Of a DNA stretch of 45,760 nucleotides, positions 12,814 to 34,213 are shown piece after piece. A model generated the notes under the pieces. The model was not told the DNA's origin. It searched no databases and worked only from the letters and a program-made list of their open reading frames with translations. The DNA is taken from NCBI GenBank assembly GCA_947259575.1, contig CAMYMU010000043.1, positions 15,097-60,856 of the forward strand. Direction: 5' to 3'. The position numbers and the translations under genes are program-made. Positions within the stretch are counted from its first letter, which is position 1. The number at the start of each line of letters is the position of its first letter. The DNA is from an uncultured Ectothiorhodospiraceae bacterium. GTDB lineage: Bacteria > Pseudomonadota > Gammaproteobacteria > UBA6429 > Thiohalophilaceae.

Positions 12814-12825
12814 AGGATGGAACCG

Positions 12826-14589: not shown

Positions 14590-14595
14590 GCCAGG

Positions 14596-15954: not shown

Positions 15955-16015
15955 ATAAAAGTAAAACTAGAAAAAAATAAATTAAGTAAAATAATATAAG
16001 CTTAGACTCAAAAGT

Positions 16016-16477
16016 ATGCTAATGGATAAGGAGGTTACTCAGAATCGCATCACCACATGTGCAAATCTGCTCGCGCAACATAGTTATGTACATTACTTTT
16101 CAATTTCGCTGACACTGGCCGCATGTGTGATTATGCTTATGATGGCGCTAATGGGATCGCTGACACTGATTTCATTTTTACTCATGCTGGGCATTATTGT
16201 TGCGGGTTTTATAGAGATGATTTTTGCCATTCGCGTTGGCTTTGATGAGAAATTGCTTAGGCAGGTTGGCACATCCAATGTGGCTGAAGAATTGATTTTG
16301 AAAAAATTAGATGATGGACTAATTTTTAACAAACTAGTACCCGCTGATAAGGCTGATCGAAACTTGCAACAAAGACTGACGGCGTGTGTTGGGCTGTTTA
16401 AACGTCAAACATCCGTATGTGCTGTCCAATTAGTCATGGTTATTAGCGCCGCTTTCGTACTGTGGATGAACTCTTAG
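16016..16477 (+). CDS. Unknown inner-membrane protein in the ynb cluster
   Basis: 153 residues with two central membrane helices (SISLTLAACVIMLMMALMG and LISFLLMLGIIVAGFIEMIF), a basic/acidic loop, and a C-terminal helix (VQLVMVISAAFVLWMN). No catalytic motif is visible and I do not recognise a family. Its position between ynbD- and ynbB-like genes and the short 15-base gap to the next gene indicate co-transcription and a possible accessory role. The start is weak: ATG at 16016 or 16022. The 61-base AT-rich gap before it is the largest inside the cluster. Confidence 0.7.
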   Translation: MLMDKEVTQNRITTCANLLAQHSYVHYFSISLTLAACVIMLMMALMGSLTLISFLLMLGIIVAGFIEMIFAIRVGFDEKLLRQVGTSNVAEELILKKLDDGLIFNKLVPADKADRNLQQRLTACVGLFKRQTSVCAVQLVMVISAAFVLWMNS

Positions 16478-16492
16478 ACAGGTATACTTTAT

Positions 16493-17428
16493 ATGATCGC
16501 AAATGTTCCTGAATATTCATTTTATGCCATGGGCGGCGTGATTGGCGTATTGGTAGTATCGACGATAATCCAGTTTTTGTTACCTCTAAAAAACCCAGAT
16601 AAGGATTATAGTGAGCTTAGACAACGTATCACCTCCTGGTGGTGGATTATTGGTTTGCTATTTGTCTTCCTCGCTGTCGGTGGGACTGCGGCTATTGTCT
16701 TTTTTGCATTTATTAGTTTTCTTGCACTAAAAGAATTTATCTCAATCGTTCCAACTCGGCAGGCAGACCGAAATGTAGTGTTTTGGGCATATCTATCCAT
16801 TCCTTTCCAGTATTATTGGGTGGCAATCGGTTGGTACGGTATGTTTATAATTTTCATTCCGGTATATATGTTTTTACTTTTCCCTATGAGAATGGTTCTA
16901 AAAGGAGAGACAGAAGGTTTTATAAAAGCGGCGGGAATTCTGCACTGGTCTGTAATGCTGACAGTCTTTTCGGTGAGTCATGTCGCGTATTTATTGGTGT
17001 TACCAGTTAATAATGAACTGGCCGGTGGGGTTGGATTAGTTCTGTTTTTATTATTTATGACTCAGTTTAATGATGTCAGCCAGTATGTATGGGGGAAACT
17101 GTTTGGTAAACATAAAATAATTCCAAAAGTTAGCCCGAATAAAACCTGGGAAGGGTTCCTGGGCGGTTTGCTTACGATAACACTGGTTGCTGGGTTTGTT
17201 GCGCCTTACCTTACACCGCTTACCCAGTTTCAAGGGTTGATCGCCGGTATTTTGATAAGCATCAGTGGTTTTTTTGGAGATGTTGTGATTTCGTCTGTAA
17301 AGCGGGATCTTCATATCAAAGATAGTGGCAATCTGCTGCCAGGGCATGGTGGGATTCTGGATCGCATGGATAGTTTAATTTATACATCCCCTTTGTTCTT
17401 CCACTATATCTACTATCTACATTTTTAA
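16493..17428 (+). CDS. ynbB: Phosphatidate cytidylyltransferase, YnbB-like
   Basis: 311 residues, polytopic. The C-terminal region carries the full CDP-diglyceride synthase signature, S-V-K-R-D-L-H-I-K-D followed by LLPGHGGILDRMDS, preceded by KVSPNKTWEGFLGG. The enzyme makes CDP-diacylglycerol from CTP and phosphatidate, and could supply the CDP-lipid used by the YnbA-like enzyme of the same cluster. It is homologous to CdsA and, by context, to YnbB. It is followed after 3 bases by the acyltransferase gene. Confidence 0.93.
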   Translation: MIANVPEYSFYAMGGVIGVLVVSTIIQFLLPLKNPDKDYSELRQRITSWWWIIGLLFVFLAVGGTAAIVFFAFISFLALKEFISIVPTRQADRNVVFWAYLSIPFQYYWVAIGWYGMFIIFIPVYMFLLFPMRMVLKGETEGFIKAAGILHWSVMLTVFSVSHVAYLLVLPVNNELAGGVGLVLFLLFMTQFNDVSQYVWGKLFGKHKIIPKVSPNKTWEGFLGGLLTITLVAGFVAPYLTPLTQFQGLIAGILISISGFFGDVVISSVKRDLHIKDSGNLLPGHGGILDRMDSLIYTSPLFFHYIYYLHF

Positions 17429-17431
17429 ACT

Positions 17432-18076
17432 ATGAATCGAATCCTGAAAGTTGTTTTTGTCTTAGTGATAGTTAGACCGTTGGTGCTAGTTCTGCTTGGC
17501 TTGAATATTCGTGATCGTACTAAGCTGCCATTAAAAGGACCAGCGATCATTGCCGCTAATCATAATAGTCATCTTGATACCATGGTGCTATTTAGCCTGT
17601 ATCCATTATCCAGGGTTCACAAGCTGCGCCCGGTAGCGGCAGCAGATTATTTTCTGTCCAATCGTTTTTTAGCCTGGTTCTCACTAAACGTGATTGGCAT
17701 CATTCCGATCTCAAGAACGGGTACAACCAACAAAGAGGATATTTTTACTGATTGCCACCAAGCCCTGGATCAAGGAGATATTCTTATCCTATTCCCAGAA
17801 GGTACACGTGGTGAGCCAGAACAAACTAGTCGACTAAAGAAAGGCATCTATTATTTAGTAAAAGACCGGAGTGATGTTCAAATCATTCCTGTGGTGACCC
17901 ATGGACTCGGTAGAGCCTTACCGAGAGGAGAGGCACTTTTTGTACCTTTTAACTGTGACGTGGCCATTGGAGATGCATTAACGCCGGTTAGCTCTTCAAA
18001 TGAATTGATCAAGCTTCTTTCCACAAGCTATACATATTTACTCGAAAACTGCTTAACCTATAATAAGTTAGACTAG
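17432..18076 (+). CDS. 1-acyl-glycerol-3-phosphate acyltransferase-like (PlsC family)
   Basis: 214 residues with an N-terminal membrane segment and the acyltransferase motifs NHNSHLD (H-x4-D catalytic pair) and LFPEGTRGE (glycerophosphate-binding). PlsC enzymes place the second acyl chain to make phosphatidic acid, the substrate of the CdsA/YnbB-like protein three bases upstream. It is the last gene of the cluster, converging on the PqiA-like gene 12 bases away. I see no strong terminator in that gap. Confidence 0.92.
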   Translation: MNRILKVVFVLVIVRPLVLVLLGLNIRDRTKLPLKGPAIIAANHNSHLDTMVLFSLYPLSRVHKLRPVAAADYFLSNRFLAWFSLNVIGIIPISRTGTTNKEDIFTDCHQALDQGDILILFPEGTRGEPEQTSRLKKGIYYLVKDRSDVQIIPVVTHGLGRALPRGEALFVPFNCDVAIGDALTPVSSSNELIKLLSTSYTYLLENCLTYNKLD

Positions 18077-21133: not shown

Positions 21134-22771
21134 ATGGAAGAAAACAAACTTATAGAGTTCAAGATAGCTACTGAGGACTGGGAATACGAGCAAATACATA
21201 AGCTAAATTATCAGACCTTTGTCCGGGAAATCCCACAACATGAAGAAAACATTACCGAAAAACTAGTAGATAAGTTTCACGATTATAATACCTATGTAAT
21301 TTGTTTAAGGCGATCTAAAGTGGTGGGGATGCTGGCTATTTGTGACCAACGACCATTTTCTTTGGAAAGTAAAGTTCAGAAACTATTTGAACATTTACCT
21401 CAACATCAATCTGCATGTGAAATACGATTGCTTTCGGTTCACAAAGAGTTCAGAAACTCTCTAGTTTTCTCTGGGCTTATAAAGCTATCTATGCAGATTT
21501 GTTTAGAAAGAGATTATGATCTATCCATTATCTCAGCAACGACTCGACAACTAAGGTTATATAAACACCTGGGATTTATAGCTTTTGGGAAAGTAGTAGG
21601 GAAAGAAGGTGCGCTGTATCAGCCAATGTACATAGATATTTATAAGGCAAGAAAACTAATCGAAAGATCGATGATATTTAAAGATCATAAAGATCTAAAA
21701 AATACTAGCCGGTCTTCAATAAAAAATTATATGCCTGGACCAGTCGATGTATCAGATAAAGTGTCATTCGAGTATTCTAAAAAACCAACTTCACATCGAT
21801 CCCAACATTTTATTCAAGAAGTAAATAGCCTTAAACAACTTCTTTGTAAAAAAGTTAAGGCCCAGAATGTTCAATTATTATCAGGTTCTGGAACCCTGGC
21901 TAATGATGTTGTAGCAACCTACATTGGCGCTATTGGTGGGAGAGGACTACTACTTGTCAATGGTGAATTTAGTCAACGCTTGGCACTACATGCTTCATCG
22001 ATGGGCCTGGATTTCGATATTTTAGAGGAAAAAGACGGCTGTGCTCCGGATTTAGCACGGCTGGAGAAATACCTAGAAGTAAACCCTGAAACAAAATGGT
22101 TATGGTCAGTTGCTTGCGAGACATCTACAGGAGTTATTAGTGATCTAGAAATGCTATCGAAAATATCTAAGTATCACGGAATACGGCTTTGTATTGATGG
22201 AATTAGTGCAATCGGTAGTTTGCCGATGGATTTGTCAGGAGTTTATATGGCAACAGCAGTGAGTGGCAAAGGTATTGGTTCATTGCCTGGTATAGCAATG
22301 GTTTTTTATCAAAATGATTTGCTTCGGCCTAAAGACAAAATACCTCGTTATTTTGATTTGTTACTTTATGAAAATATGCAGGGTGTTCCTTTTACAATAT
22401 CGACTAATGCGGTATATGCACTGAAAGAGTCACTAACCGCTAATAAATATGAATATAAATATGCGGAATATGCTACATGGAGAAGTGAATTAGTTACTGA
22501 ACTAGAAGGTATAGGCCTAAAAGTTATTGCGCAGGACAATTATGCAAATCATGTATTAACCATACAGATTCCACCACAGTATAACTCTGAAGTAATTGGA
22601 AATTGCTTGCACGAAAAAGGTTATGCATTGTCATATAAAAGTCAGTATTTAATAAAGCAGAATAGAATACAACTTTGCTTTATGGGTGAGTGCGAAAAAC
22701 CAGATAGACGTTTTATTCAGGTCTTTAGAAATATATTGAATGATGACTCTATGCGACAAATAAGCCTGTAA
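21134..22771 (+). CDS. GNAT-like acyltransferase fused to class-V aminotransferase
   Basis: 545 residues. The first ~180 resemble the GNAT/autoinducer-synthase-like acyltransferase fold: ...VVGMLAICDQRPF, CEIRLLSVHKEFRNS, then STTRQLRLYKHLGF-type ending. The rest is a PLP-dependent fold-type I enzyme of class V (alanine-glyoxylate / 2-aminoethylphosphonate aminotransferase type): YMPGPVDVSD, LLSGSGTLANDVV, ACETSTGVISD, LCIDGISAIGSLP with the PLP Asp, and the PLP Lys in AVSGKGIGSLPG (Lys379). The fusion suggests a two-step synthesis of an acylated amino compound, but the substrate is unknown. A strong AAGGGGG precedes the start. It has no operon partner before the nitrate regulon. Confidence 0.8.
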   Translation: MEENKLIEFKIATEDWEYEQIHKLNYQTFVREIPQHEENITEKLVDKFHDYNTYVICLRRSKVVGMLAICDQRPFSLESKVQKLFEHLPQHQSACEIRLLSVHKEFRNSLVFSGLIKLSMQICLERDYDLSIISATTRQLRLYKHLGFIAFGKVVGKEGALYQPMYIDIYKARKLIERSMIFKDHKDLKNTSRSSIKNYMPGPVDVSDKVSFEYSKKPTSHRSQHFIQEVNSLKQLLCKKVKAQNVQLLSGSGTLANDVVATYIGAIGGRGLLLVNGEFSQRLALHASSMGLDFDILEEKDGCAPDLARLEKYLEVNPETKWLWSVACETSTGVISDLEMLSKISKYHGIRLCIDGISAIGSLPMDLSGVYMATAVSGKGIGSLPGIAMVFYQNDLLRPKDKIPRYFDLLLYENMQGVPFTISTNAVYALKESLTANKYEYKYAEYATWRSELVTELEGIGLKVIAQDNYANHVLTIQIPPQYNSEVIGNCLHEKGYALSYKSQYLIKQNRIQLCFMGECEKPDRRFIQVFRNILNDDSMRQISL

Positions 22772-22864
22772 CCAGAACTCAAGGATGAGCTAAAGGAGGT
22801 TTAAATCACTATTTACTGACTTTGAACTACGAATTTTAATGTAATGGAAAAATGATCACTCATC

Positions 22865-22932
22865 GTGCGTAGTCTAAAAATAATGTGAGTTTGTAGTGCA
22901 TAAATTTTTAAAAATGTAATTATTTAGTGCAT
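22865..22932 (+). promoter_or_regulatory. Three GTGC half-sites at 31-base spacing (possible NtrC enhancer)
   Basis: GTGC cores start at 22865, 22896 and 22927, exactly 31 bases (three helical turns) apart. The last two sit in identical TAGTGCAT octamers, whose reverse complement ATGCACTA matches the left half of NtrC sites (TGCACTA). They end about 65 bases before the sigma-54 promoter. The full NtrC palindrome is not present, so this is tentative. Confidence 0.4.
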
Positions 22933-22994
22933 GTCAAAAATGGTCTCATGCCTGATAATGTGTAACCCTCTGAAAAGACTAGTACTATTTCTAT

Positions 22995-23010
22995 TGGCAC
23001 CATATTTGCT
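22995..23010 (+). promoter_or_regulatory. Sigma-54 promoter of nasT unit
   Basis: The sequence TGGCACCATATTTGCT has GG (22996-22997) and GC (23008-23009) ten bases apart, matching the sigma-54 consensus TGGCAC-N5-TTGCT at every conserved base. Transcription would start near 23021, about 30 bases before the nasT ATG. Confidence 0.85.
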
Positions 23011-23051
23011 CTAGACCCTGTTAGACCCTTAAAGAATTCAAGTAAATTGAT

Positions 23052-23636
23052 ATGAGCGCGTTACCAGGTGTTCTGATAATTAGTGAAACGTCAGACACTA
23101 CAGATGCATTACAAGTCACTCTAAAAGAGTCGGGCTACCAGATTAAGTCGCATATTACTGTGGCTGAAGATGTGGTTGAGGAAGTTGACCGCTGTCAGCC
23201 AGATATTGTGGTAGTGAAGACTGAGGAAACGAGTCGCTATCTCATGAATCAGTTGTATAACCTGAATCAGGAGAGCCCTAAGCCTATTGTGATCTTTACT
23301 GACAAAAGTGAGAGTGGACTGATTGAAGGTGCGATTACGGCTGGAGTGAGCGCATATGTTGTTGATGGATTGTCGGCAGAGAGAGTGAAACCCGTTCTAG
23401 AAGTTGCAAAATTTCGTTTTGAAAAAGAACAGTCACTACGTAGTGAACTTACCAAAGCAAAGTCACAACTTGAAGAAAGGAAAACTATCGAACGTGCTAA
23501 AGGGATTATTATGAAAAGCCGTGGTCTCGGTGAAGATGAGGCTTATAAGGCTTTACGTAAATTAGCGATGAATAAAAATCAGAAGCTTATTGAAGTTGCC
23601 GAAGATGTGGTTTCAGTTTCTGAGTTATTAATGTAA
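23052..23636 (+). CDS. nasT: NasT-like ANTAR antiterminator with degenerate receiver
   Basis: 194 residues: an N-terminal receiver-like domain (1-120), a coiled coil (125-145) and a C-terminal ANTAR RNA-binding domain (ERKTIERAKGIIMKSRGLGEDEAYKALRKLAMNKNQKL). ANTAR proteins bind paired six-base-loop hairpins and block terminators. Overall it is closest to NasT of the NasS-NasT nitrate system (PKPIVIFTD, GVSAYVV). Where NasT has Asp at the phosphoacceptor strand (PDVxLIDTES as I recall), this protein has PDIVVVKTEE, that is Lys56. Phosphorylation is therefore excluded, and control by a protein partner is likely. It is driven by a sigma-54 promoter, and two ANTAR-type RNA leaders are present nearby. 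Confidence 0.9.
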   Translation: MSALPGVLIISETSDTTDALQVTLKESGYQIKSHITVAEDVVEEVDRCQPDIVVVKTEETSRYLMNQLYNLNQESPKPIVIFTDKSESGLIEGAITAGVSAYVVDGLSAERVKPVLEVAKFRFEKEQSLRSELTKAKSQLEERKTIERAKGIIMKSRGLGEDEAYKALRKLAMNKNQKLIEVAEDVVSVSELLM

Positions 23637-23663
23637 GCAGCCTTAGTTGGCTTAATTTAAATC

Positions 23664-23699
23664 GAGACCAACGTGGGTCTCAAAATAGACAAAGATGTC
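23664..23699 (+). ncRNA. ANTAR-responsive two-hairpin RNA, leader 1
   Basis: Hairpin P1: GAGACC, loop AACGTG, GGTCTC (6 bp). After a linker AAAATA comes hairpin P2: GAC, loop AAAGAT, GTC (3 bp). Both six-base loops have A at position 1 and G at position 4, the recognition rule known for ANTAR proteins such as NasR, NasT and EutV. P2 shares its 3' arm with the 5' arm of the terminator at 23697. Confidence 0.85.
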
Positions 23700-23738
23700 A
23701 TCCATGCTGTTATCCGGCAGGGTTGGTGTCTTTTTTTT
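23697..23738 (+). terminator. Conditional terminator between nasT and the NirB-like gene
   Basis: GTCATCCATGCTG pairs imperfectly (10 of 13 positions, including U-G pairs) with CAGGGTTGGTGTC around an 8-base loop, followed by T8. The 5' arm overlaps the P2 hairpin of the ANTAR RNA, so protein-bound P2 would prevent terminator formation. Confidence 0.75.
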
Positions 23739-23749
23739 GGAGCAAAAGA

Positions 23750-25741
23750 ATGAACATAGCCGTTCATTTAGTAGAAGATGAAGTTGAAGATATGTCGCTA
23801 GAACATCCCATCGTTATTGTTGGGACTGGACCTGTTGGCATAAAAACACTAACAACGCTGTTAGCGGAGTCACCAGACAAAAATATAATTGTGTATGGCG
23901 ATGAGCCGTGGGAGCCCTATAACCGTGTGAAGTTATCATCATTTTTGGCTGGTGAAATTGATTGGGCTGATCTCACAGATTCTCAAAAAATTCCAGAGAT
24001 AAAAAATCTGGTTCAACATCAGAATTGTAAAATCACAAAGATAGATAAGGATAAAAAAGTTGTTATAGACGAACTAGGTCGAGAGCAGAAGTATGAGAAG
24101 TTAATCCTGGCGCTAGGTTCGCGACCACATATCCCTGGTATTGAAGGTGTTGAGCTTGATGGAGTTTATACCTTCCGCGATATGACAGACACAAACCGTC
24201 TTTTGGCTCGTCAAACTAAAAGTAGGACGACTGTTATCGTTGGCGGTGGTGTATTGGGTCTAGAAGCCGGGAAGGCCATGCTCAAAAACAACACAAACGT
24301 CGTTGTGGTCGATCATGCGATGAGGCTGATGTCAAACCAGCTCGATGAAGATGCCAGTGAGTTAGTAAAAGAGCATATATATTCACTCGGTATTCGCTTA
24401 AGTCTAGGTTCTGGCATAAAAAAAGTATTAGGAGAAAATAAAGTTACAGGAATTGAGCTGCTCAATGGTAAAAAAATAGATTGCGATACAGTCATTTTCT
24501 CTACCGGAATAAAACCTAATATCGAACTGGCAAGAGATGCAAAAATATCAATCGGTAAAGGTGTGCGTGTCTCTGACACAATGCTGACTAGTGACCCAGA
24601 TATTTATGCCGTTGGCGAGTGTGCTGAACATAGAAATATTGTTTATGGCCTGGTCGCTCCTGGCTTTGAGCAGGCAAAAGTAGCAGTTGCGGATATTTTC
24701 GGGAAAAAAACGAATTACACCGGTTCAATTATGGCCACACAACTTAAAGTTGTGGGTATGCCTGTTTTTAGCATGGGCCGAACAGGAGAGGGCGAGAGTA
24801 AAAGTATTTTTGTTCAATACATCTACAGTAAGCCAGAAAAGGGTCTGTATCGTAAAATTATTATTTTTCGAAATCGTGTTGTTGGTGCAATTTCAGTAGG
24901 AAATTGGGACACACTACACCGTGTACAAGAGAGTATTACTAAGAATAGATATATATGGCCATGGCAGCTAAAACGATTTAGCAAGATGGGTGACCTATGG
25001 TCGCTAGAGCAGAGTAAAAAGGTTAGTCAGTGGCCAGCTAGTGCTATCGTCTGCAATTGTATGAATGTTTCACGAGGGCAGTGTAGCAAAGCAATTAGTA
25101 CGGGTTGCTCCAGTGTAGAAGAAATTATGCAGTCTACGTCTGCCTCAACTGTTTGTGGGGGTTGCCGCCCACTGATTTCCGAATTGCTTGGTGGTGTGGT
25201 TAAGGCTGAAAAAATTAAGGCAGTAAAATCTTTTATGTTTTACTCATTGCTGACCAGTATAGCGATGTTAGCTGCACTGTTTTTACCAGGCCTTATGTAT
25301 AACCCCTCAGCAGAAGTCAATTTCCAATGGGATCAATTGTGGCGCAATGGATTAATTAAACAAGTGACAGGTTATAGCATTCTGGGAATGACTCTATTCG
25401 GACTACTTATCTCTCTAGCTAAGCGCTGGAAGAAATTTTCTTTTTTTCAGTTCTCTGTATGGCGTTACCTACATGTGCTCATCGGAGTATTTATCGTAAT
25501 AGCGTTGTTTTCTCATACGGGTTTTCGTTTAGGAAATAATTTGAATGGAATGCTAATGGTTTTGTTTTCAGGATTAATTCTTGTGGGAGGGATATATGGA
25601 TTATTCATGTCACTCCAACACAAACTGGATGGAGTCTTTGTAAATAGAGTTCGCGGCTACCTAAACTGGACACACCTGTTACTTTTCTGGCCTGTACCGG
25701 TTTTGCTCTCGTTTCATGTTTTAAAGACCTACTACTTCTAA
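23750..25741 (+). CDS. NirB-like NAD(P)H flavoprotein with [2Fe-2S] and membrane heme-b-like domain
   Basis: The ATG at 23750 with GGAG seven bases upstream gives 663 residues. A TTG at 23723 lies inside the terminator. Residues ~17-400 form a two-dinucleotide-fold oxidoreductase as in the N-terminus of NirB (FAD site VIVGTGPVGIK, NAD site VIVGGGVLGLEAG, FAD tail DIYAVGECAEH). Next is a BFD-like [2Fe-2S] domain, C435-N-C437 and C469-G-G-C472. The C-terminal ~180 residues are membrane helices containing His in YLHVLIG, LFSHTGF, NWTHLLLF and LSFHVLKT, suited to ligate two b hemes. The siroheme nitrite-reductase part of NirB is absent. It probably passes NAD(P)H electrons to the membrane and on to the cytochrome 10 bases downstream. 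Confidence 0.85.
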   Translation: MNIAVHLVEDEVEDMSLEHPIVIVGTGPVGIKTLTTLLAESPDKNIIVYGDEPWEPYNRVKLSSFLAGEIDWADLTDSQKIPEIKNLVQHQNCKITKIDKDKKVVIDELGREQKYEKLILALGSRPHIPGIEGVELDGVYTFRDMTDTNRLLARQTKSRTTVIVGGGVLGLEAGKAMLKNNTNVVVVDHAMRLMSNQLDEDASELVKEHIYSLGIRLSLGSGIKKVLGENKVTGIELLNGKKIDCDTVIFSTGIKPNIELARDAKISIGKGVRVSDTMLTSDPDIYAVGECAEHRNIVYGLVAPGFEQAKVAVADIFGKKTNYTGSIMATQLKVVGMPVFSMGRTGEGESKSIFVQYIYSKPEKGLYRKIIIFRNRVVGAISVGNWDTLHRVQESITKNRYIWPWQLKRFSKMGDLWSLEQSKKVSQWPASAIVCNCMNVSRGQCSKAISTGCSSVEEIMQSTSASTVCGGCRPLISELLGGVVKAEKIKAVKSFMFYSLLTSIAMLAALFLPGLMYNPSAEVNFQWDQLWRNGLIKQVTGYSILGMTLFGLLISLAKRWKKFSFFQFSVWRYLHVLIGVFIVIALFSHTGFRLGNNLNGMLMVLFSGLILVGGIYGLFMSLQHKLDGVFVNRVRGYLNWTHLLLFWPVPVLLSFHVLKTYYF

Positions 25742-25751
25742 GTGAAGATTA

Positions 25752-27137
25752 ATGAGCGCACGCAAACATATTTACTGGATTTACTGGCTACTTATTACTG
25801 TAGGGATAGCTGTGTATTTAACTATGCAATTACTTGGTGAAGATAAAACGGTATATCTGCCTGGCAAAACAAGCCACGGTCATTATCAGATCGAAATGGC
25901 TTGTGCTGCTTGTCATAGCGATCCACTTGGCGGCGGAGAAGTATTGCAGGAAGCGTGTATGAATTGTCATGGTAGTGAGCTGGAAGTCGCTGATGACTCA
26001 CATCCAAAGTCAAAATTCACAAATCCTCGTAACGCAGATCGAGTAGCGAAGTTGGATGCACGAAAATGCGTAACCTGCCACACCGAACATAAAGAAGAAA
26101 TCACGCTTGCGATGGGCGTTACACAACCCGACGATGTTTGCTTTAAATGTCATCAGGATGTTGCAGAAAATCGCCCGAGTCATGAAGGCCTGGAGTTTCC
26201 AACCTGTGCAACCGCGGGCTGTCACAATTTTCACGATAACCGGGCCCTCTATGAAGATTTTTTGTCTAAACATCTGGGCGAGCCTGATGTACATGCAATG
26301 GCAGAAGTCGTTCCTTTGTCGTCAGTTGAGGTCTATCAGACAATTTCAAGCTACCCAATTGAGCAGTTTCCAATCAAGCCTCTTAAGTCAAACGAGGCGG
26401 ATCAACCTATTTCTGTTCGCAAAGACCCTAAAATCGTACAGGACTGGATGGACACAGCACATAGCCAATCAGGTGTTAACTGCAGCGCATGTCATGAACA
26501 AAAAACGGAAGGTTTAGATGAACCAGTATGGGTTGATAAACCAAGCCACAAGGTTTGTTCAACATGTCATACCGATCAGACTAAAGGGTTTTTATCAGGA
26601 AAACATGGAATGCGTCTAGAACAGAATTTAACTCCTATGACACCGGGTAAGGCACGCCTGGACATGAAACGCACGGCACATGGTGATGAACTGTCGTGTG
26701 TGTCTTGCCATAGCTCTCACCGGTTTAATACTAAAGACGCGGCAGTAGAAGCCTGTTTGAGTTGCCATGATGACCAACATAGCAACTCATATAAAGACTC
26801 AAAGCATTTTAATCTATGGCACAAAGAAATAAGAGGGCAGGCGGCTGAAAATACCGGCGTATCTTGCGCTACCTGCCATATGCCTCGTAAAGAAGTTAAA
26901 CACGACGGTATGAAAATAATTATTGCTGAGCACAATCAAAATGACAATTTGCGACCAAATGAAAAAATGCTCCGCAGCGTATGTATGCAATGTCATGGTC
27001 TGGGCTTCTCAATAGATGCTCTTGCAGATCGTGAGCTTGTCGAAAAGAATTTTTCTGAAAAACCTGACGTCCACATTGAAAGCCTGGACATGGTAAAGAA
27101 GCGTCTGGGTTTGAAGAAAGATGTAGATGGTATGTAA
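25752..27137 (+). CDS. Membrane-anchored 11-heme cytochrome c
   Basis: 461 residues with an N-terminal anchor (IYWIYWLLITVGIAVYLTM). Ten CxxCH heme sites lie at Cys 51, 69, 106, 130, 244, 269, 316, 335, 372 and 411. One CATAGCH (C-x4-CH) at Cys152 gives 11 hemes. The C-terminal half (GKHGMR, PMTPGKAR, SYKDSKHF, GVSCATCHMPR, HNQNDNLRPNE, CMQCHGLGF) recalls octaheme HAO/tetrathionate-reductase-like enzymes. The N-terminal half looks like an electron-entry module. It lies between the NirB-like gene and a heme lipoprotein gene. A periplasmic reduction of a nitrogen oxide is inferred, not shown. Confidence 0.9.
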   Translation: MSARKHIYWIYWLLITVGIAVYLTMQLLGEDKTVYLPGKTSHGHYQIEMACAACHSDPLGGGEVLQEACMNCHGSELEVADDSHPKSKFTNPRNADRVAKLDARKCVTCHTEHKEEITLAMGVTQPDDVCFKCHQDVAENRPSHEGLEFPTCATAGCHNFHDNRALYEDFLSKHLGEPDVHAMAEVVPLSSVEVYQTISSYPIEQFPIKPLKSNEADQPISVRKDPKIVQDWMDTAHSQSGVNCSACHEQKTEGLDEPVWVDKPSHKVCSTCHTDQTKGFLSGKHGMRLEQNLTPMTPGKARLDMKRTAHGDELSCVSCHSSHRFNTKDAAVEACLSCHDDQHSNSYKDSKHFNLWHKEIRGQAAENTGVSCATCHMPRKEVKHDGMKIIIAEHNQNDNLRPNEKMLRSVCMQCHGLGFSIDALADRELVEKNFSEKPDVHIESLDMVKKRLGLKKDVDGM

Positions 27138-27162
27138 ATTTATTAACACTTGGAGAGTAATC

Positions 27163-27732
27163 ATGAAATCAAAGATATTAGTTTTATTCAGTAGTATTAT
27201 TGGCTCGGCGTTTTTGTTGTCTGCATGTGGCGAACAAAAGACAACGGGCATTGACCCTCAGATGATGACTGACTCACTGTTTAGCGTGATGGAAGCAGAC
27301 AGGACGGTTTATACCAAGCTTATTATTGGTCGTCTTGCTAAAGATGAGAAAGTCATTAAAGCTTCTGAGCACTGGAAAGATGAGAAGGCACTGGTTTTGC
27401 CAGCACAGATGTTTCGTTATGGCGCAGAACGTGTAGCAGAAAAAGGTGCACCCTTCAGTTATTCCCTGCTTTCGCTATGGCCAGTGAACAAGCAAAACAA
27501 ACCTAAGACAGAAGTTGAAATTAAAGGTTTGAACTACATTGCTGAGAATCCTGGTAAAAACTTCTATTCAGAAGAAGAGCTAGGTGGAGTTAAGTATTTC
27601 ACAGCTGTTTACCCCGACGTCGGTGTCGCACCAGCCTGTGTTTCCTGTCACAACAAGCACAAAGATAGCCCACGTACTGACTTCAAACTTGGTGAAGTAA
27701 TGGGTGGTGTTGTGATTCGCATCCCGATTTAA
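27163..27732 (+). CDS. Heme c lipoprotein with Tll0287-like (DUF3365) domain
   Basis: The ATG at 27163, preceded by GGAGAG, gives 189 residues with a lipoprotein signal (lipobox LLSAC, Cys22). The body matches the Tll0287-like / DUF3365 pattern: PAQMFRYGAERVAEK, FSYSLLSLWPVNKQN, and a single CVSCH heme site followed by HKDSPRTDFKLGEVMGGVVIRIP. Such domains bind one heme and often act as gas or redox sensors. An upstream in-frame start at 27127 would overlap the cytochrome gene and spoil the signal. It probably serves the cytochrome or the globin encoded beside it. Confidence 0.88.
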   Translation: MKSKILVLFSSIIGSAFLLSACGEQKTTGIDPQMMTDSLFSVMEADRTVYTKLIIGRLAKDEKVIKASEHWKDEKALVLPAQMFRYGAERVAEKGAPFSYSLLSLWPVNKQNKPKTEVEIKGLNYIAENPGKNFYSEEELGGVKYFTAVYPDVGVAPACVSCHNKHKDSPRTDFKLGEVMGGVVIRIPI

Positions 27733-27753
27733 ACAAAAGACTATAGGAGAATT

Positions 27754-28173
27754 ATGATGACCCCTGAACAAATCAAATTAGTACAAAGTAGCTGGGAGCA
27801 AGTAAAGCCCATATCTGAAAAGGCTGCGGAGTTGTTTTATGGAAAACTATTTGAGTTAAATCCTGGTTATAAGGCTCTATTCCCTGAGGATATGACTGAG
27901 CAAGGACGAAAATTAATGGCCATGATCAATACCGCAGTTAATAGTTTAAACAATCTCGAAGCGGTTGTACCTGCTGTTGAAGAAATGGGTAAGCGCCATG
28001 TTGGTTATGGTGTTAAAGATGAAGACTATGATGTTGTTGGTGAGGCGCTGTTATGGACTTTAGGTGCAGGCCTTGGTGATGCCTTTACCGAGGACGTTAA
28101 ATCTGCATGGACGGAGACTTATGTCGTACTTTCAACAACAATGAAAAATGCCGCGGCTACTGTAGCAGCATAA
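27754..28173 (+). CDS. Single-domain bacterial hemoglobin
   Basis: 139 residues, a complete globin: QIKLVQSSWEQVKPISEKAAELFYGKLFELNPGYKALF at the A-CD region and the proximal His in MGKRHVGYGV. It resembles Vitreoscilla-type globins and the globin part of flavohemoglobins, without a reductase domain. NO or O2 handling is the usual role. Its place at the end of a nitrate-controlled unit fits protection against NO. The NirB-like flavoprotein in the same operon could be its reductase, which is inference. A strong terminator follows. Confidence 0.95.
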   Translation: MMTPEQIKLVQSSWEQVKPISEKAAELFYGKLFELNPGYKALFPEDMTEQGRKLMAMINTAVNSLNNLEAVVPAVEEMGKRHVGYGVKDEDYDVVGEALLWTLGAGLGDAFTEDVKSAWTETYVVLSTTMKNAAATVAA

Positions 28174-28193
28174 CCCACGTTCCTTGTGGAGAT

Positions 28194-28221
28194 AACCCTG
28201 TGCCTCGGCACAGGGTTTTTT
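28194..28221 (+). terminator. Terminator after the globin gene
   Basis: AACCCTGTGC, loop CTCG, GCACAGGGTT is a perfect 10-bp stem followed by a T-run. It ends the first nitrogen-oxide unit. Confidence 0.95.
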
Positions 28222-28240
28222 ATGTGCGTTTTACATTTTT

Positions 28241-28328
28241 GCACCATCTCAAGGCAATCCCAAAATCCATCTGCCCCATTTTTAAACCTAATTCATCTGA
28301 AATACGAAAAATAGCACCAGAATAGAGC
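28241..28328 (+). promoter_or_regulatory. Two possible NtrC sites upstream of nrtA
   Basis: GCACCA occurs at 28241 and again at 28314, where it extends to GCACCAGAATAGAGC, a fair match to the NtrC palindrome GCACCA-N3-TGGTGC. They are 73 bases apart (seven helical turns), about 170 and 95 bases before the sigma-54 promoter, a typical enhancer distance. Confidence 0.5.
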
Positions 28329-28415
28329 GTTTTTTGATGGTGGTATGGCTTTTATAGTAAGATTTTCGCGGAAAAACTATTAGAAAACAGGTATTTAAGT
28401 ATTCTCTAATATTTC

Positions 28416-28431
28416 TGGCACAGTGCTTGCT
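28416..28431 (+). promoter_or_regulatory. Sigma-54 promoter of the nitrate-transporter unit
   Basis: TGGCACAGTGCTTGCT has GG at 28417-28418 and GC at 28429-28430 with ten bases between, matching the sigma-54 consensus as well as the promoter before nasT. The start of transcription would be near 28442, just ahead of the ANTAR RNA. Confidence 0.88.
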
Positions 28432-28450
28432 CTATAGAACTATAAGTATC

Positions 28451-28494
28451 CCTGATCTAATGGCGGGTCAGGCAATAAATTAGGCAAAGGCGCC
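28451..28494 (+). ncRNA. ANTAR-responsive two-hairpin RNA, leader 2
   Basis: P1: CCTGATCT, loop AATGGC, GGGTCAGG (8 bp with two U-G pairs). After ten bases, P2: GGC, loop AAAGGC, GCC. Both loops are six bases with A1 and G4. P2 has the same form as in leader 1 (3-bp stem, loop AAAG followed by two bases). It begins about ten bases after the predicted transcription start. Confidence 0.87.
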
Positions 28495-28539
28495 CATGAA
28501 CCCACGTCAATTCGACTTGCATTCATAGACGCTTTTTTT
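28490..28539 (+). terminator. Conditional terminator ahead of nrtA
   Basis: A long imperfect stem, 28490-28508 with 28514-28532 (14 of 19 positions pair), closes a 5-base loop and is followed by T7. Its 5' arm includes the 3' arm of ANTAR hairpin P2, as expected for an antitermination switch. Confidence 0.85.
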
Positions 28540-28589
28540 ACGGCCCAGATATTTTAAATAGGAATTTTAGAGAGGTTGAGATAATAGGT

Positions 28590-29981
28590 ATGAAATTTAT
28601 TTTTGGAAGAAGACATTTTTTAAAGAAAAGTATGATGACACTTGCGATGGCAGCAAGTGTTGTTACCGCCAGCATTAGTAGTAGTGCATATGCCGTTGGT
28701 GAACCTGAAAAAGAGGAATTGAAGTTTGGCTTTATCAAGTTAACTGACATGGCACCGTTAGCCATCGCCTATGAAAAGGGATACTTTGAAGATGAGGGCC
28801 TGTACGTTACTTTGGAAGCGCAAGCTAACTGGAAAGTATTACTGGATCGTGTCATTGATGGCCAATTAGATGGGGCGCACATGTTAGCGGGTCAACCATT
28901 AGGGGCAACAATTGGCTTTGGTACAAAGGCCGATGTGATAACCGCGTTTAGTATGGACCTGAACGGAAATGCTATTACTGTTTCCAACGATATCTGGAAG
29001 GAGATGAAAAAACACGTTCCGCACAAAGACGGTAAACCTGTTCATCCAATTAAAGCCGATTATCTAAAGCCCGTCGTCGATCAATTTAAGAAAGAAGGTA
29101 AACCTTTCAAAATGGGCATGGTATTTCCCGTGTCGACACATAACTATGAATTGCGCTACTGGTTGGCAGCAGGTGGTATTCATCCTGGATTTTATGCTCC
29201 TCACAAAGGCGACACGAGCGGTAACTTAAAGGCGGATGCCTTATTATCGGTTACGCCCCCACCACAAATGCCCTCCACAATGGAAGCAGGTACCATCTAT
29301 GGTTATTGCGTAGGTGAGCCCTGGAATCAACAGGCAGTATTCAAAGGGATTGGTGTCCCCGTCATTACTGATTACGAAATCTGGAAAGACAACCCAGAAA
29401 AAGTATTTGGTGTAAGCAAAGCCTGGGCAGAGAAATATCCAAACACACATATTCGTGTCGTCAAAGCACTGATTCGAGCTGCACTTTGGTTAGACGAAGA
29501 CAACAACAAGAATCGTCCTGAAGCAGTGAAGATTCTTGCCAAGAGTCAGTACGTTGGTGCCGATTACGATGTAATTGCCAATAGCATGACGGGTACCTTT
29601 GAATATGAAAAAGGTGACAAACGTGATGTACCAGATTTCAACGTCTTCTTTCGTTATAACGCAACCTATCCTTACTACAGTGATGCAATCTGGTACCTGA
29701 CACAAATGCGTCGTTGGGGACAAATCTCTGAGAAGAAGAGTGATAGCTGGTACAAGGATATTGCTAAGAAAGTTTATCGTCCGGATATCTATGCAAAAGC
29801 AGCGAAGGAACTCATCAAGGAAGGCAAGTTAAAGGCTTCAGACTTCCCTGAGTTTGCAACCGAAACAGGGTTTCGAAAGCCACAGACTCACTTTATTGAT
29901 GGCATTACCTACGATGGTAGCAAACCAAATGAGTATCTAACCAAGTTCAAAATTGGCCTAAAAGGTAAGGACAAGATTTAA
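28590..29981 (+). CDS. nrtA: Nitrate-type ABC transporter substrate-binding protein (NrtA-like, Tat signal)
   Basis: 463 residues of the NrtA/CmpA family. It begins with a twin-arginine signal (GRRHFLKKS, then a hydrophobic stretch ending SSAYAVG), so it is exported folded. The mature part contains [21 protein letters not shown], the [13 protein letters not shown] loop and [13 protein letters not shown], all typical of nitrate/bicarbonate binders. The signal distinguishes it from cytoplasmic NasS, which has the same fold. It is the first gene after sigma-54 promoter and ANTAR leader 2. A hairpin after the stop may keep its message in excess over nrtB. Confidence 0.93.
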
Positions 29982-29989
29982 CGGTGCTA

Positions 29990-30017
29990 CCTCCTGGTAC
30001 GGGATTGTACCGGGAGG
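29990..30017 (+). other. Intercistronic hairpin between nrtA and nrtB
   Basis: CCTCCTGGTAC pairs with GTACCGGGAGG over 11 bp (one G-T) around a GGGATT loop, with no T-run. Its likely effect is 3'-end protection of the binding-protein message, a common arrangement in ABC operons. Confidence 0.65.
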
Positions 30018-30036
30018 TCCTTATGAGGACACACAC

Positions 30037-31044
30037 ATGAATACGCAAGTTATCAAATTATTTGAAAGTATGAATATACCAGGTCATACAAGTAAATTTC
30101 TTGAATGGGCGAAAGACCCATCTAAAGTTTTTAAAACCCTGGGCATTCCGCTACTGTCTATAGCTATCTTTCTCGCTGTTTGGGGTGGTGTTGCCTCTCA
30201 AATTAAAACATCGCTTGGACAAGTACCCGGACCAACACAGGTTTGGCAACAATCTGTAACGCTCTATGATGAACATGTTGAGGAAAGGGAAAAGGAAGAG
30301 AAGTTTTACCAGCGCCAGGAAAAACGTAATGCTAAGAAACTCGAACAAAATCCTGATGCAAAAGTAAAAATTCGTCCTTACACAGGTAAGCCAACATTTT
30401 TTGACCAAATATTTACCAGTATCATTACTGTGTTGACTGGTTTTTTTATCGCTAGCCTAATTGCAATCCCCATCGGTATAGTTTGTGGGCTGAGTACGAC
30501 GTTATATACAGCACTAAATCCACTGATACAGACGTTTAAACCGGTATCACCTTTAGCATGGTTACCCATTGTCACTATCATTGTCAGTGCAGTGTATATA
30601 TCAGATGATCCTCTATTCGAGAAATCATTCTTGACCTCGGCCATTACAGTTACCTTATGTTGCATGTGGCCGACGATAATTAACACGACGGTTGGTGTTT
30701 CAACTATAGATAAAGATTTAGTCAATGTCAGTCGGGTATTACGCCTTGGTTGGTTCACCAATATCTTCAAGATTGTGTTGCCGTCATCGATACCAATGAT
30801 GTTTGCAGGCTTGCGTGTTTCTTTAGGTATTGGCTGGATGGTACTGATTGCAGCGGAAATGTTAGCGCAGAATCCAGGTTTAGGAAAATTTGTTTGGGAT
30901 GAGTTCCAAAATGGTAGCTCTAACTCACTGGCGCGTATCATGGTTGCCGTTATTGCGATTGGCCTGATTGGCTTTGCACTTGATCGGTTAATGTTACTTT
31001 TTCAGAAATATGTCAGCTGGGACAAGTCAGCCGTCATTCGTTAA
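30037..31044 (+). CDS. nrtB: Nitrate ABC transporter permease (NrtB-like)
   Basis: 335 residues of the BPD_transp_1 / SsuC-NrtB type with membrane helices, a conserved cytoplasmic EAA-type loop (INTTVGVSTIDKDLVNVSRVL) and LRVSLGIGWMVLIAAEML. Residues ~75-125 form a charged, Lys/Glu-rich insert (HVEEREKEEKFYQRQEKR) after the first helix, which NrtB proteins of this group can carry. It is in the same operon as nrtA and the ATPase gene. Confidence 0.93.
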   Translation: MNTQVIKLFESMNIPGHTSKFLEWAKDPSKVFKTLGIPLLSIAIFLAVWGGVASQIKTSLGQVPGPTQVWQQSVTLYDEHVEEREKEEKFYQRQEKRNAKKLEQNPDAKVKIRPYTGKPTFFDQIFTSIITVLTGFFIASLIAIPIGIVCGLSTTLYTALNPLIQTFKPVSPLAWLPIVTIIVSAVYISDDPLFEKSFLTSAITVTLCCMWPTIINTTVGVSTIDKDLVNVSRVLRLGWFTNIFKIVLPSSIPMMFAGLRVSLGIGWMVLIAAEMLAQNPGLGKFVWDEFQNGSSNSLARIMVAVIAIGLIGFALDRLMLLFQKYVSWDKSAVIR

Positions 31045-31065
31045 GTGGAGAAGAGGAGAATTAAG

Positions 31066-31899
31066 ATGAAGCATTTAGAAATTTCTCAGGTATCAATGGA
31101 ATTCGAAACGCCTACAGGACCTTTTTCAGCACTGAAAGACGTTGATTTGACGATTAGTGAAGGTGAGTTTGTATCTCTAATCGGTCACTCAGGGTGCGGT
31201 AAGTCGACAGTATTGAATATTGTAGCAGGTCTATATCAGGCAACGGGCGGTGGTGTCATTCTTGATGGTAAAGAAGTCAATGAGCCCGGTCCAGATAGAG
31301 CCGTAGTATTTCAAAATCACTCTTTGTTGCCCTGGCTAACTGCTTATGAAAATGTTGAGTTAGCGGTAAAACAGGTTTTTAGTGGCAAGAAGTCAAAGTC
31401 TGAGATAAAAGACTGGATCAAACATAATCTTGAGTTGGTGCACATGACCCACGCGATGGATAAGCGACCTAGCGAGATCTCGGGTGGTATGAAACAACGA
31501 GTTGGTATCGCCAGGGCGTTGGCAATGGAACCAAAAGTACTTTTAATGGATGAGCCATTCGGTGCACTGGATGCCTTGACGCGTGCACATATGCAGGATT
31601 CATTAATTGAAATTCAGGCACGCCTGAATAATACAGTAATTATGATTACGCATGATGTTGATGAAGCCGTATTGCTATCCGATCGAATTGTAATGATGAC
31701 TAATGGCCCGTCAGCAACTGTTGGCGAAGTTCTTTCTATAGATCTTCCACGCCCTCGTGATCGCGTAAAACTTGCCGGGGATAAGCGCTATAACGAATAT
31801 CGTGCAGAAGTACTTAAATTCTTGTATGAGCGTCAGCGTAAGATTGAACCTGTCAATACAAGTGTCAAGAAGGTCAAAAAAGAAGACAAAGCAGCGTAG
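31066..31899 (+). CDS. nrtD: Nitrate ABC transporter ATPase (NrtD-like)
   Basis: The ATG at 31066 with GAGGAG seven bases upstream gives 277 residues (a GTG at 31045 has no such site). Walker A GHSGCGKST, Q-loop FQNHSLLPW, signature SGGMKQR, Walker B LLMDEPFGALD and switch His TMITHDVDEA are intact. It is a simple ATPase without the NrtA-like regulatory tail of cyanobacterial NrtC, hence NrtD-like. It energises nitrate or nitrite uptake with the two proteins encoded just upstream. Confidence 0.93.
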   Translation: MKHLEISQVSMEFETPTGPFSALKDVDLTISEGEFVSLIGHSGCGKSTVLNIVAGLYQATGGGVILDGKEVNEPGPDRAVVFQNHSLLPWLTAYENVELAVKQVFSGKKSKSEIKDWIKHNLELVHMTHAMDKRPSEISGGMKQRVGIARALAMEPKVLLMDEPFGALDALTRAHMQDSLIEIQARLNNTVIMITHDVDEAVLLSDRIVMMTNGPSATVGEVLSIDLPRPRDRVKLAGDKRYNEYRAEVLKFLYERQRKIEPVNTSVKKVKKEDKAA

Positions 31900-31928
31900 T
31901 TCTAGTAACAGAGTTGATATGTGTGAAC

Positions 31929-31948
31929 GCCAAGGATGGCCCTTTTTT
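31929..31948 (+). other. Short hairpin plus T-run between nrtD and the NIT gene
   Basis: GCCA-AGGA-TGGC followed by CCTTTTTT looks like a weak attenuator. Read as GCC-AAGGAT-GGC, the six-base loop also has A1 and G4, but no partner hairpin lies beside it. It may lower expression of the NIT gene relative to the transporter. Confidence 0.35.
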
Positions 31949-31965
31949 AATCATTTGAGCGAAGA

Positions 31966-32898
31966 ATGTTAAAAGCGGAAAATAAACAAGAAATAATCAG
32001 TGATACATGCGATGTGAATGCGACAAAGTCTGTTGCCCGTTATCTTTATCATTTACGGACCATCACAATTATACGCCATATCATACCCGTGATAATTGCA
32101 AGCCAGCAACACCGTGGATCTCAGCTAGCTTTTCTGGAAGGTGATAGCTTATATCAGAAAAAGCTTTCCGACCTTGAAGCGGAAATGGATCATCGGCTCT
32201 CGACGTTGAAACTACTAAATCGAGAGCTTTCCGAACCCGTACCAGTATGGGATATTGAGCAACTTTTGCAAGAATGGCAAACAGTAAAGGATTGGTCAGA
32301 AGGTCCACTTCTGGAGAATTTCAACTTACACAGCCATTTTATCGAACAACAAATGAAACTGATGTGGCTTTTAGTCGAAAAATCTAACAGTTTTTTCGTA
32401 GGGGACATCGATGACGGGTATTCAGGCAACAATCAAACAGGATCCCATCGCAATACTGATTCCTTACTTATTCGATTGATCTTGAATGAGACGCCCGAAC
32501 TAATTGAACTCATTGCAAGAATACGAGGGTTATCAACGCATGCATTAGTAATAGGTACATGCGATGAAGACCATTATACCTGGATTGAATATTTACTCAG
32601 GGAACTTAATCAGAAAAAAGAATATTTCAGGGAATTATCAAAATCTTTACAAAAATATGTACTACGAGATTTTCCTGCACTGATTGAACTACAAATGCAA
32701 GATGTGCGTATCGTGCAACTTGTTCAGTTTATAGAAAAATTCGTTCTCAGAAAAAACAACATTGAGATGGAAAACCAGGATGTTTTTGTTATGGCTACGA
32801 AAATCATCAACTCTCAAACTGAGGTAATCTATAAGGGGCTGGATTACATTCAGAATAAGATGCATCGAGATTTTGATGGCTGGCATCAGCCTATTTAG
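31966..32898 (+). CDS. Stand-alone NIT (nitrate/nitrite-sensing) domain protein
   Basis: 310 residues, almost all helical, with no signal peptide and no ANTAR, kinase or other output domain. The segment IASQQHRGSQLAFLEGDSLYQKKLSDLEAEMDHRL matches the N-terminal NIT motif (Q-x-E/H-R-G-x-S...), and IARIRGLSTHALV matches the second conserved region. The NIT domain in Klebsiella NasR binds nitrate or nitrite and releases its ANTAR domain. Here the sensor is separate and sits at the end of the nitrate-transporter operon. It is therefore the best candidate to control the NasT-like protein encoded at 23052, which is inference. Confidence 0.78.
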   Translation: MLKAENKQEIISDTCDVNATKSVARYLYHLRTITIIRHIIPVIIASQQHRGSQLAFLEGDSLYQKKLSDLEAEMDHRLSTLKLLNRELSEPVPVWDIEQLLQEWQTVKDWSEGPLLENFNLHSHFIEQQMKLMWLLVEKSNSFFVGDIDDGYSGNNQTGSHRNTDSLLIRLILNETPELIELIARIRGLSTHALVIGTCDEDHYTWIEYLLRELNQKKEYFRELSKSLQKYVLRDFPALIELQMQDVRIVQLVQFIEKFVLRKNNIEMENQDVFVMATKIINSQTEVIYKGLDYIQNKMHRDFDGWHQPI

Positions 32899-33113
32899 TT
32901 GGTGGGAGAATTCTGTATTCAGGGGGCCAAATAGGGACAATTTAGTACTTTATTTGCACTATTAACCCAAATAAACACTATTATGCCTTGTATTACTGGT
33001 TTGCGGTCTTATACTACTTATATGTGTGATGTATCTAGTTAAAACCGGTTATTTCACACGCCGATACATTCTATCCTGGTTCTTGTCAGTAGTTCTCTTT
33101 AGTTTTCTCCTGT

Positions 33114-33170
33114 TAATTACCTCGTAAGATTTGTAACACATTATTATTATATTATTCAAAGAGGTAATTA
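33114..33170 (+). promoter_or_regulatory. Inverted repeat masking the csp ribosome-binding site
   Basis: TAATTACCTC (33114-33123) is the exact complement of GAGGTAATTA (33161-33170), which contains the Shine-Dalgarno of the cold-shock gene two bases before its ATG. In the mRNA the two could pair over 10 bp and hide the start. Upstream, 32899-33113 holds no gene, and I see no clear terminator for the NIT gene. Confidence 0.6.
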
Positions 33171-33172
33171 TT

Positions 33173-33373
33173 ATGGCAACAGGAACCGTTAAATGGTTTA
33201 ACGACTCTAAAGGCTTCGGCTTTATCACTCCAGAAGATGGTAGCGCTGACGTGTTTGCTCACTTTTCTGCTATCAAAAGTGAAGGTTTTCGTTCACTAGC
33301 TGAAGGTCAGCAAGTGACTTACGACGTAGAGTCTGGTCCTAAAGGCCCACAGGCAGCAAACATACAGGTCTAA
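33173..33373 (+). CDS. Cold-shock protein (CspA family)
   Basis: 66 residues, a complete single cold-shock domain: [20 protein letters not shown] with RNP1 KGFGFI, RNP2 DVFAHFS, and the end [12 protein letters not shown]. It binds single-stranded RNA/DNA and acts as an RNA chaperone. It is monocistronic with a long leader and its own terminator. Which csp paralogue it is cannot be decided, and it may or may not be cold-induced. Confidence 0.97.
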
Positions 33374-33398
33374 ATAACCTCGAGTTTACGCTTTACCG

Positions 33399-34205: not shown

Positions 34206-34213
34206 TACAAATC

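Follow-up and report, generated by a model that had tools for sequence, protein, structure and literature searches.

We describe a candidate ANTAR-dependent transcription attenuator between a nasT-like gene and genes for a flavoprotein, an 11-heme cytochrome, a heme lipoprotein and a globin. From sequence, predicted fold and comparison with relatives we give this reading a probability of about 90%. The type of switch is already known; its heme-module cargo and the lack of an identified NasS are unlike the textbook cases. The window, meaning the whole stretch of 45,760 nucleotides that was analysed, carries the element together with its presumed regulator and promoter as follows.

22995..23010, + strand: sigma-54-type promoter pattern TGGCACCATATTTGCT upstream of nasT, an exact consensus match
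23052..23636, + strand: nasT-like gene, degenerate receiver plus ANTAR (Pfam ANTAR E 4.9e-22)
23664..23681, + strand: predicted ANTAR hairpin P1, loop AACGTG (sequence, fold, covariation)
23688..23699, + strand: predicted ANTAR hairpin P2, loop AAAGAT, overlapping the terminator 5' arm (sequence, covariation)
23691..23738, + strand: predicted intrinsic terminator with the T8 tract 23731-23738 (fold -14.0 kcal/mol; as stable in 0 of 200 shuffles)

The sequence-only reading of this DNA had claimed two hairpins with six-base loops carrying A1 and G4 at 23664-23738, the second overlapping in its bases a T8 terminator's 5' arm, this terminator being placed 12 bases ahead of the next start codon. 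Sequence and fold bear out each part of this description. P1 consists of GAGACC (23664-23669), the loop AACGTG (23670-23675) and GGTCTC (23676-23681), and P2 of GAC (23688-23690), the loop AAAGAT (23691-23696) and GTC (23697-23699), both loops having A as their first and G as their fourth base. The P2 loop and the P2 3' arm fall inside the terminator 5' arm (23691-23700, sense orientation), the terminator 3' arm lies at 23724-23733, and the flavoprotein ATG at 23750 is 12 bases past the end of the T8 tract at 23738. Folded by itself, P1 has a z of -3.7; P2 by itself is weak, with three base pairs, -2.9 kcal/mol and a loop drawn with 4 bases. In the minimum-energy fold of 23655-23745 (-25.3 kcal/mol compared to -18.7 +/- 3.0 in 200 shuffles, 5 of which were equal or better), P1 is present and the terminator takes the place of P2, which matches the expectation for an attenuator without bound protein.

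The layout is rare by chance. Using a strict scan (A..G.. loops, a P1 stem of at least 5, a P2 stem of at least 3, loop spacing 19-34 and a T5 run downstream), we found two sites on the + strand of the window (loops at 23670/23691 and 28459/28486) and no site on its - strand, compared to a mean of 0.03 and a maximum of 1 per window in 60 dinucleotide-shuffle rounds over both strands, with a spacing range chosen when both sites were already known. No Rfam family reached its cut-off at the first leader.

Relatives were sought with the membrane part of the flavoprotein as query in 369 genomes of the class, 39 of which matched. The flavoprotein set used for co-occurrence comprised 26 of these 39 genomes, the 13 with weaker matches being left out (8e-13 in G284, E >= 4.7e-6 in the others). 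Out of 26 stretches around the better matches, L045, L053 and L063 were left unscanned (gene cut or match weak), and the leader scan covered 25 upstream regions: that of the window, those of 23 other flavoprotein genes and that of the genome's own nirB. Candidates were dropped for loop spacing (those of L060 and the first pairs in L041, L043, L047 and L055) or by judgement (one in L039 with spacing 21 and a 3-bp P1, and a third in L055 with spacing 21 and a T run only 12 nt past P2), and 9 leaders were kept. Thus a leader whose P2 overlaps a terminator lies ahead of the homologous flavoprotein gene in 8 of the 23 other stretches scanned. The cluster in L046 has a third ANTAR leader (12245-12287); the gene behind it is outer-membrane porin-like and stands after nasT and before the flavoprotein gene.

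In the alignment of the 9 leaders, 94.4% of cells are paired compared to 78.5% in shuffles and 27-51% in slid controls, changes on both sides of a pair are found in 16 cells, where shuffles give 5.7, and the covariation score reaches 0.56, where they give 0.25. Two of the five measures are near the shuffles, namely double-change pairs (6 vs 3.8) and pair types (11 vs 10.3). With covariance model R1 the set was grown to 23 leaders (28 matches, 5 without a regular P1 loop being dropped); here 95.2% of cells are paired, with 50 both-side changes compared to 16.3 in shuffles and a covariation score of 0.63 compared to 0.25. Because the scanner demands pairing and A1/G4, the covariation of the 9 leaders is partly built in, and the 23-leader alignment partly inherits this. 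Both leader sets, of 9 and of 23, show compensatory changes. The earlier reading, which had named missing stem covariation in relatives as a refutation, is therefore not refuted.

The RNA covariance search that had been put forward as another check was run across the class with R2, a model made from the 23 leaders, under stricter filters that lose weak matches. A leader is found at E <= 1e-3 in 42 of the 369 genomes. An ANTAR protein is encoded in 41 of these 42, compared to 114 of 369 genomes overall (counted with no correction for genome relatedness). Eleven of the 42 genomes supplied training sequences (G000, G036, G043, G045, G052, G081, G126, G128, G163, G285 and G311); with these removed, 30 of 31 encode an ANTAR protein, the exception, G178, being a 72% complete assembly. 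For matches at E 0.001-0.01 the fraction is 10 of 14 genomes. At E 0.01-0.05 it is 6 of 17 and the link is gone, so these R2 matches are mostly noise.

The downstream context was examined for the 31 best leaders with loci (2 from the own genome and 29 class-wide). Each of the 31 is followed by a run of five or more T that begins 25-48 nt past the leader. The next gene is NrtA-like in 19 cases, the flavoprotein in 7 and a globin in 1; the other four, read from their protein starts, are three MFS transporters and one porin. Sigma-54-type sites with at most 2 mismatches lie ahead of 16 of the 31 leaders compared to 49 of 620 random stretches. In the genome of the window, R1 matches at E <= 10 fall only at the two window leaders (150 of 269 first-look candidates scored).

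Four weak Rfam matches are found at the first leader, and the one with the lowest E-value is narK RNA (RF03032), which spans P1 and P2 at 16.9 bits, under its 43.2-bit gathering cut-off. In the RF03032 consensus, CGAC-AAAGAC-GUCG comes after a 7-bp hairpin whose loop is AACGGC, an arrangement equivalent to P1 plus P2 with A1/G4, although Rfam pairs the first hairpin only and has the P2 segment unpaired. Class-wide at E <= 0.01, 21 of 31 RF03032 matches overlap R2 leaders by at least 20 nt, and an ANTAR protein is encoded in 24 of the 28 genomes with such matches; the gathering cut-off is passed in 2 genomes only. These sequence comparisons suggest that the Rfam narK RNA is a NasT-type ANTAR leader. 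The family was reportedly defined by Weinberg et al. in 2017. Among the papers listed by our literature searches on narK RNA, which did not extend to that defining paper, we found no statement of ANTAR-leader identity.

The second site of the strict scan lies downstream of the globin gene and ahead of nrtABC.

28194..28221, + strand: probable intrinsic terminator after the globin gene, a 10-pair stem (28194-28217) with T tail
28416..28431, + strand: sigma-54-type promoter pattern TGGCACAGTGCTTGCT, an exact consensus match about 20 nt before the second leader
28451..28472, + strand: predicted second ANTAR leader P1, loop AATGGC (R1 19.4 bits, sequence, fold)
28483..28494, + strand: predicted second ANTAR leader P2, loop AAAGGC (sequence, fold)
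28486..28539, + strand: predicted second-leader terminator with the T7 tract 28533-28539 (fold -14.4 kcal/mol; as stable in 10 of 200 shuffles)
28590..29981, + strand: nrtA, nitrate-type substrate-binding protein (PF13379 E 3.7e-98; Tat-like signal by reading)
30037..31044, + strand: nrtB, permease (TIGR01183 E 5.2e-47, below cut-off)
31045..31899, + strand: nrtC, ATPase (TIGR01184 over cut-off)

R1, which was built without the second leader, marks 28449-28499 weakly (19.4 bits, E 0.5 for the genome), and the higher R2 score of this leader is circular since its sequence was in the R2 training set. Its P2 by itself is no more stable than shuffles. The T7 tract ends at 28539, 51 bases ahead of nrtA. 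The window holds only two perfect sigma-54 patterns, before nasT and before the second leader (0.06 expected); the promoter calls at 22995 and 28416 use the sigma-54 consensus. Sigma-70 promoters and generic terminators in 22700-32000 occur in numbers at chance level, and no + strand promoter between 23638 and 23750 emerges from the search for the sigma-54 pattern or from that for sigma-70. NtrC sites, sought as symmetric TGCACC-N6-GGTGCA with 3 mismatches, show no enrichment at this spacing (14 found vs 17 expected).

Concerning the genes placed under the switch, the sequence-only reading had named those from the flavoprotein to the globin, within the operon of nasT. This set is retained with one amendment: the unit probably ends at the intrinsic terminator after the globin gene, which makes nrtABC a second transcription unit, with its own promoter-type site and leader. 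The genome's own nirB-nirD-nasA operon (contig C47) carries a perfect sigma-54 pattern some 40 nt upstream of nirB and gave no match in the leader search; on the model, therefore, NasT in this genome is predicted to control uptake and the heme module and to leave the reductases alone. On the same contig (L058 2576-9457, - strand), the gene after nirB-nirD-nasA reads as a fusion of DmsB-like ferredoxin and DmsC-like membrane parts.

The genes directly behind the first leader are listed here.

23750..25741, + strand: flavoprotein with a NirB-like FAD/NAD(P)H part, a BFD [2Fe-2S] part and a C-terminal membrane part (Pfam/NCBIfam, alignment)
25752..27137, + strand: membrane-anchored 11-heme cytochrome with 10 CxxCH and 1 CX4CH (profile, fold comparison)
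27163..27732, + strand: Tll0287/DUF3365 lipoprotein with one CxxCH (Pfam PF11845 E 6.8e-20)
27754..28173, + strand: single-domain globin (Pfam globin E 4.6e-17)

The flavoprotein scores below the cut-off of the NirB model. Its membrane part has four invariant His (575, 589, 642 and 656 in 23 sequences), which probably fit two b hemes. The heme count that had been given for the cytochrome is right provided that the CX4CH motif binds heme: all 24 relatives retrieved by way of the flavoprotein keep the ten CxxCH and the CX4CH without change, and a further 79 cytochromes have 10 CxxCH in 79 of 79 and the CX4CH in 78 of 79, the search pattern for the latter set having covered the CX4CH site itself. 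Ten non-motif His are invariant in both cytochrome alignments, and as an eleventh one alignment has H84 and the other H174, H84 standing at 98% in the second alignment. In 54 sequences, the His conserved at >= 95% are the 11 of the motifs and 12 others. About one conserved non-motif His per heme is enough for bis-His ligation, a pattern that favours a wire over an enzyme without proving it.

The C-terminal half of the cytochrome resembles in part, by profile and fold, the HAO/octaheme nitrite reductase/NrfA superfamily. Residues 353-423 match octaheme nitrite reductases (profile E 1e-9), and the best structural comparison is with 4qo5 (Z 10.2 over 202 residues), followed by HAO and nitrite reductases; the best Foldseek E is 1.2e-3. 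Unlike members of this superfamily, the cytochrome adds a five-heme N-terminal part and a membrane anchor, and an open catalytic heme is not evident in it, the non-motif His being about as many as the hemes. An undecaheme cytochrome from Ca. Tenderia is on record in PMC5371394, and UetJ in PMC10734462. In a preprint (PMC12889525), a stand-alone protein of the Tll0287 type showed no strong binding of NO and seemed to be redox-active.

Relatives of the cytochrome are encoded in 474 stretches from a collection of 84,980 species genomes. Among the best 80 of these 474 stretches, 78 have a match to the flavoprotein, its gene immediately preceding that of the cytochrome in 77, a Tll0287 gene is found in 80 and a globin in 57, counts that are lower bounds as flanks end at 10 kb or at contig ends. 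In these same 80, NasT lies within the stretch in at least 27, an NrtA-type protein in at least 30, and a leader (E <= 0.1) ahead of the flavoprotein or globin gene in at least 19, the last count using 46 of 60 matches at E < 0.1. One stretch with such a match (E 0.009) ahead of the flavoprotein gene is L179, from the cultured Halochromatium glycolicum. As NasT and the leader accompany only part of the best 80, the module occurs more broadly than its control by NasT. Overall, the cargo looks like an electron module running from NAD(P)H to the periplasm through the 11-heme cytochrome. The Bradyrhizobium proteins Flp and Bjgb feed and protect nitrate assimilation (PMC4724949), and by this likeness our best guess for the role of the cargo is the handling of nitrite or NO.

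We propose that RNA polymerase would start at the sigma-54-type promoter at 22995 and read through nasT into the leader. Active NasT, probably as a dimer by analogy with EutV, would hold P1 and P2 together and so keep the P2 strand out of the terminator, and transcription would then continue into the flavoprotein, 11-heme cytochrome, heme lipoprotein and globin genes. Without active NasT, transcription would stop at 23738. The leader at 28451-28539 would gate nrtABC in the same manner from its own sigma-54-type promoter. Control by nitrogen limitation would come through sigma-54, and nitrate or nitrite may be the signal.

This layout resembles the leaders of EutV (E. faecalis) and NasR (Klebsiella nasF), which have in common with it A1/G4 hexaloop hairpins and a P2 overlapping an intrinsic terminator, and where the protein blocks termination as we propose for the NasT of the window. 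In PMC3369931, EutV is the established case for both the dual hairpin and the A1/G4 rule, and NasR for the A1/G4 loop. Unlike these systems, the window has a receiver-type NasT with no partner identified, its nasT lies directly before its target, and the cargo is a heme electron-transfer module. The NasS-NasT system of Bradyrhizobium shares with the window a NasT family protein, nitrate transport genes among the targets, and flavoprotein and single-domain globin targets, here like Flp and Bjgb. It differs in that NasS was not found in the genome of the window, whose nirBD-nasA has no leader match, and in that the flavoprotein, unlike Flp, has a membrane part and is paired with the 11-heme cytochrome. 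The effect of NasT on the Flp/Bjgb genes is disputed. In PMC6759348, narK-bjgb-flp, which has a predicted NasT hairpin, was raised and not lowered without nasT, and few NasT-dependent genes had a clear hairpin. Accordingly, a hairpin alone is no proof of direct positive control.

Within this genome, the nasT at 23052, adjoining the leader, is the only ANTAR match. Its ANTAR match is over the cut-off and its receiver match under it (E 4.5e-4), and in the alignment the NasT proteins of the window, L038 and L089 have Lys where several relatives carry the receiver Asp. Sequence matches in the PDB are 1s8n ('putative antiterminator'), 6wsh ('response regulator'), 4akk (NasR) and 1qo0 (AmiR).

A rival reading takes the element as a chance one, a plain intrinsic terminator between nasT and an independently transcribed flavoprotein operon, with an incidental hairpin upstream. 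Such an arrangement would suit a terminator that is stable by itself and a P2 that is weak in isolation; it leaves unaccounted for that P1, P2 and their spacing are kept with compensatory changes, that the element recurs ahead of nrtA, transporter, porin-like and globin genes and tracks ANTAR proteins, and that no promoter pattern was seen on the + strand between nasT and the flavoprotein gene. We therefore rejected it as very improbable. The NasT-leader switch of the sequence-only reading is thus supported by layout, covariation and ANTAR co-occurrence, and the signal that it implied is less certain, since NasS was not found. In Paracoccus, according to PMC3795266, NasT is kept back by NasS as long as nitrate and nitrite are lacking, and P. 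denitrificans without nasS expresses Nas constitutively. A PF13379 search of the own genome gave NrtA and two weaker proteins in an assembly that is 95.85% complete, which makes a gap possible. With the NasS query, the single strong match in each of G000 (95.85%), G398 (99%) and G045 (97% complete) was NrtA (310-316 bits), with a further match of 20 bits in G398, compared to a second match above 400 bits in G335, G381 and G384. Across the order, NasT matches at E <= 1e-30 in 12 genomes, several of them drafts (the G377 stretch is cut by a contig end), and 3 of the 12 have a NasS-level match (>400 bits). Nitrate gating of the leader cannot therefore be assumed.

An alternative of real weight, to which we give somewhat less than even odds, keeps the ANTAR leader and takes the NasT of this NasS-less lineage as constitutive, with its amount, set through the sigma-54 promoter, and not nitrate, in control. 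The NasS searches, the Paracoccus precedent and the perfect sigma-54 pattern ahead of nasT all fit this. On the other hand, G382 and G386 have a NasS-level match and no NasT match at E <= 1e-30, which indicates that drafts can miss genes; a leader would be pointless under a constitutive antiterminator unless the NasT level varies; and the nitrate signal could still be carried by NrtA or by the protein encoded after nrtC.

31966..32898, + strand: stand-alone NIT-like protein, possible nitrate sensor (predicted fold, two four-helix bundles)

This 310-aa protein is NIT-like by its predicted fold (model pLDDT 80 from 4 sequences): the best match is NasR 4akk_B (Z 22.6, rmsd 4.1, 266 residues) by a wide margin over the next fold (Z 13.8), with a Foldseek E of 0.029. 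It might pass a nitrate signal to NasT in trans, like the NIT domain of NasR. Its gene stands at the cluster end both here and in G045, where NasS likewise was not found, and in L195 and L211 the genes next to the flavoprotein-cytochrome module include distant relatives (21-24% identity). Those two retrieved stretches have no NasT match, however, and contact with NasT is purely hypothetical; moreover, no relative was found in G398, which is of the same genus and also lacks a NasS match, and no Pfam profile matched the protein at E <= 10. We consider this route unlikely. Quite unlikely, too, is the full combination, in which a NasS-less NasT would take its nitrate signal from the stand-alone NIT-like protein (NasR split in two genes) and gate a widespread module that leads electrons from an NAD(P)H flavoprotein carrying b hemes to the 11-heme cytochrome in the periplasm and handles nitrite or NO from nitrate assimilation. 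For the element itself, the ANTAR-dependent attenuator is the reading that we retain.

The window has further features of its own. A gene at 21134-22771 fuses a GNAT/FeeM-like N-acyl amino acid synthase part to a class V aminotransferase (PhnW/AepZ-like), and a cspA thermoregulator RNA lies at 33005-33427 (107.8 bits). At 34202-38817, genes for an M20 amidase family protein, an isochorismatase family protein, a symporter-like protein (by reading) and an aspartate/ornithine carbamoyltransferase stand in a row that looks like ureide or pyrimidine nitrogen use. The run at 12151-18076 is of lipid type, judged by reading translations: CDP-alcohol transferase-like, a hydrolase with a methyltransferase-like part, CdsA-like, acyltransferase-like, and a PAP2-like protein with a dual-specificity-phosphatase-like end.

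Finally, the leader serves as a label. It ties a conserved module of flavoprotein, 11-heme cytochrome, Tll0287 lipoprotein and, often, globin to nitrate assimilation and so gives this module a testable function. Our data also suggest that NasT is often present without NasS in this family, which makes the control of such a NasT a testable question.
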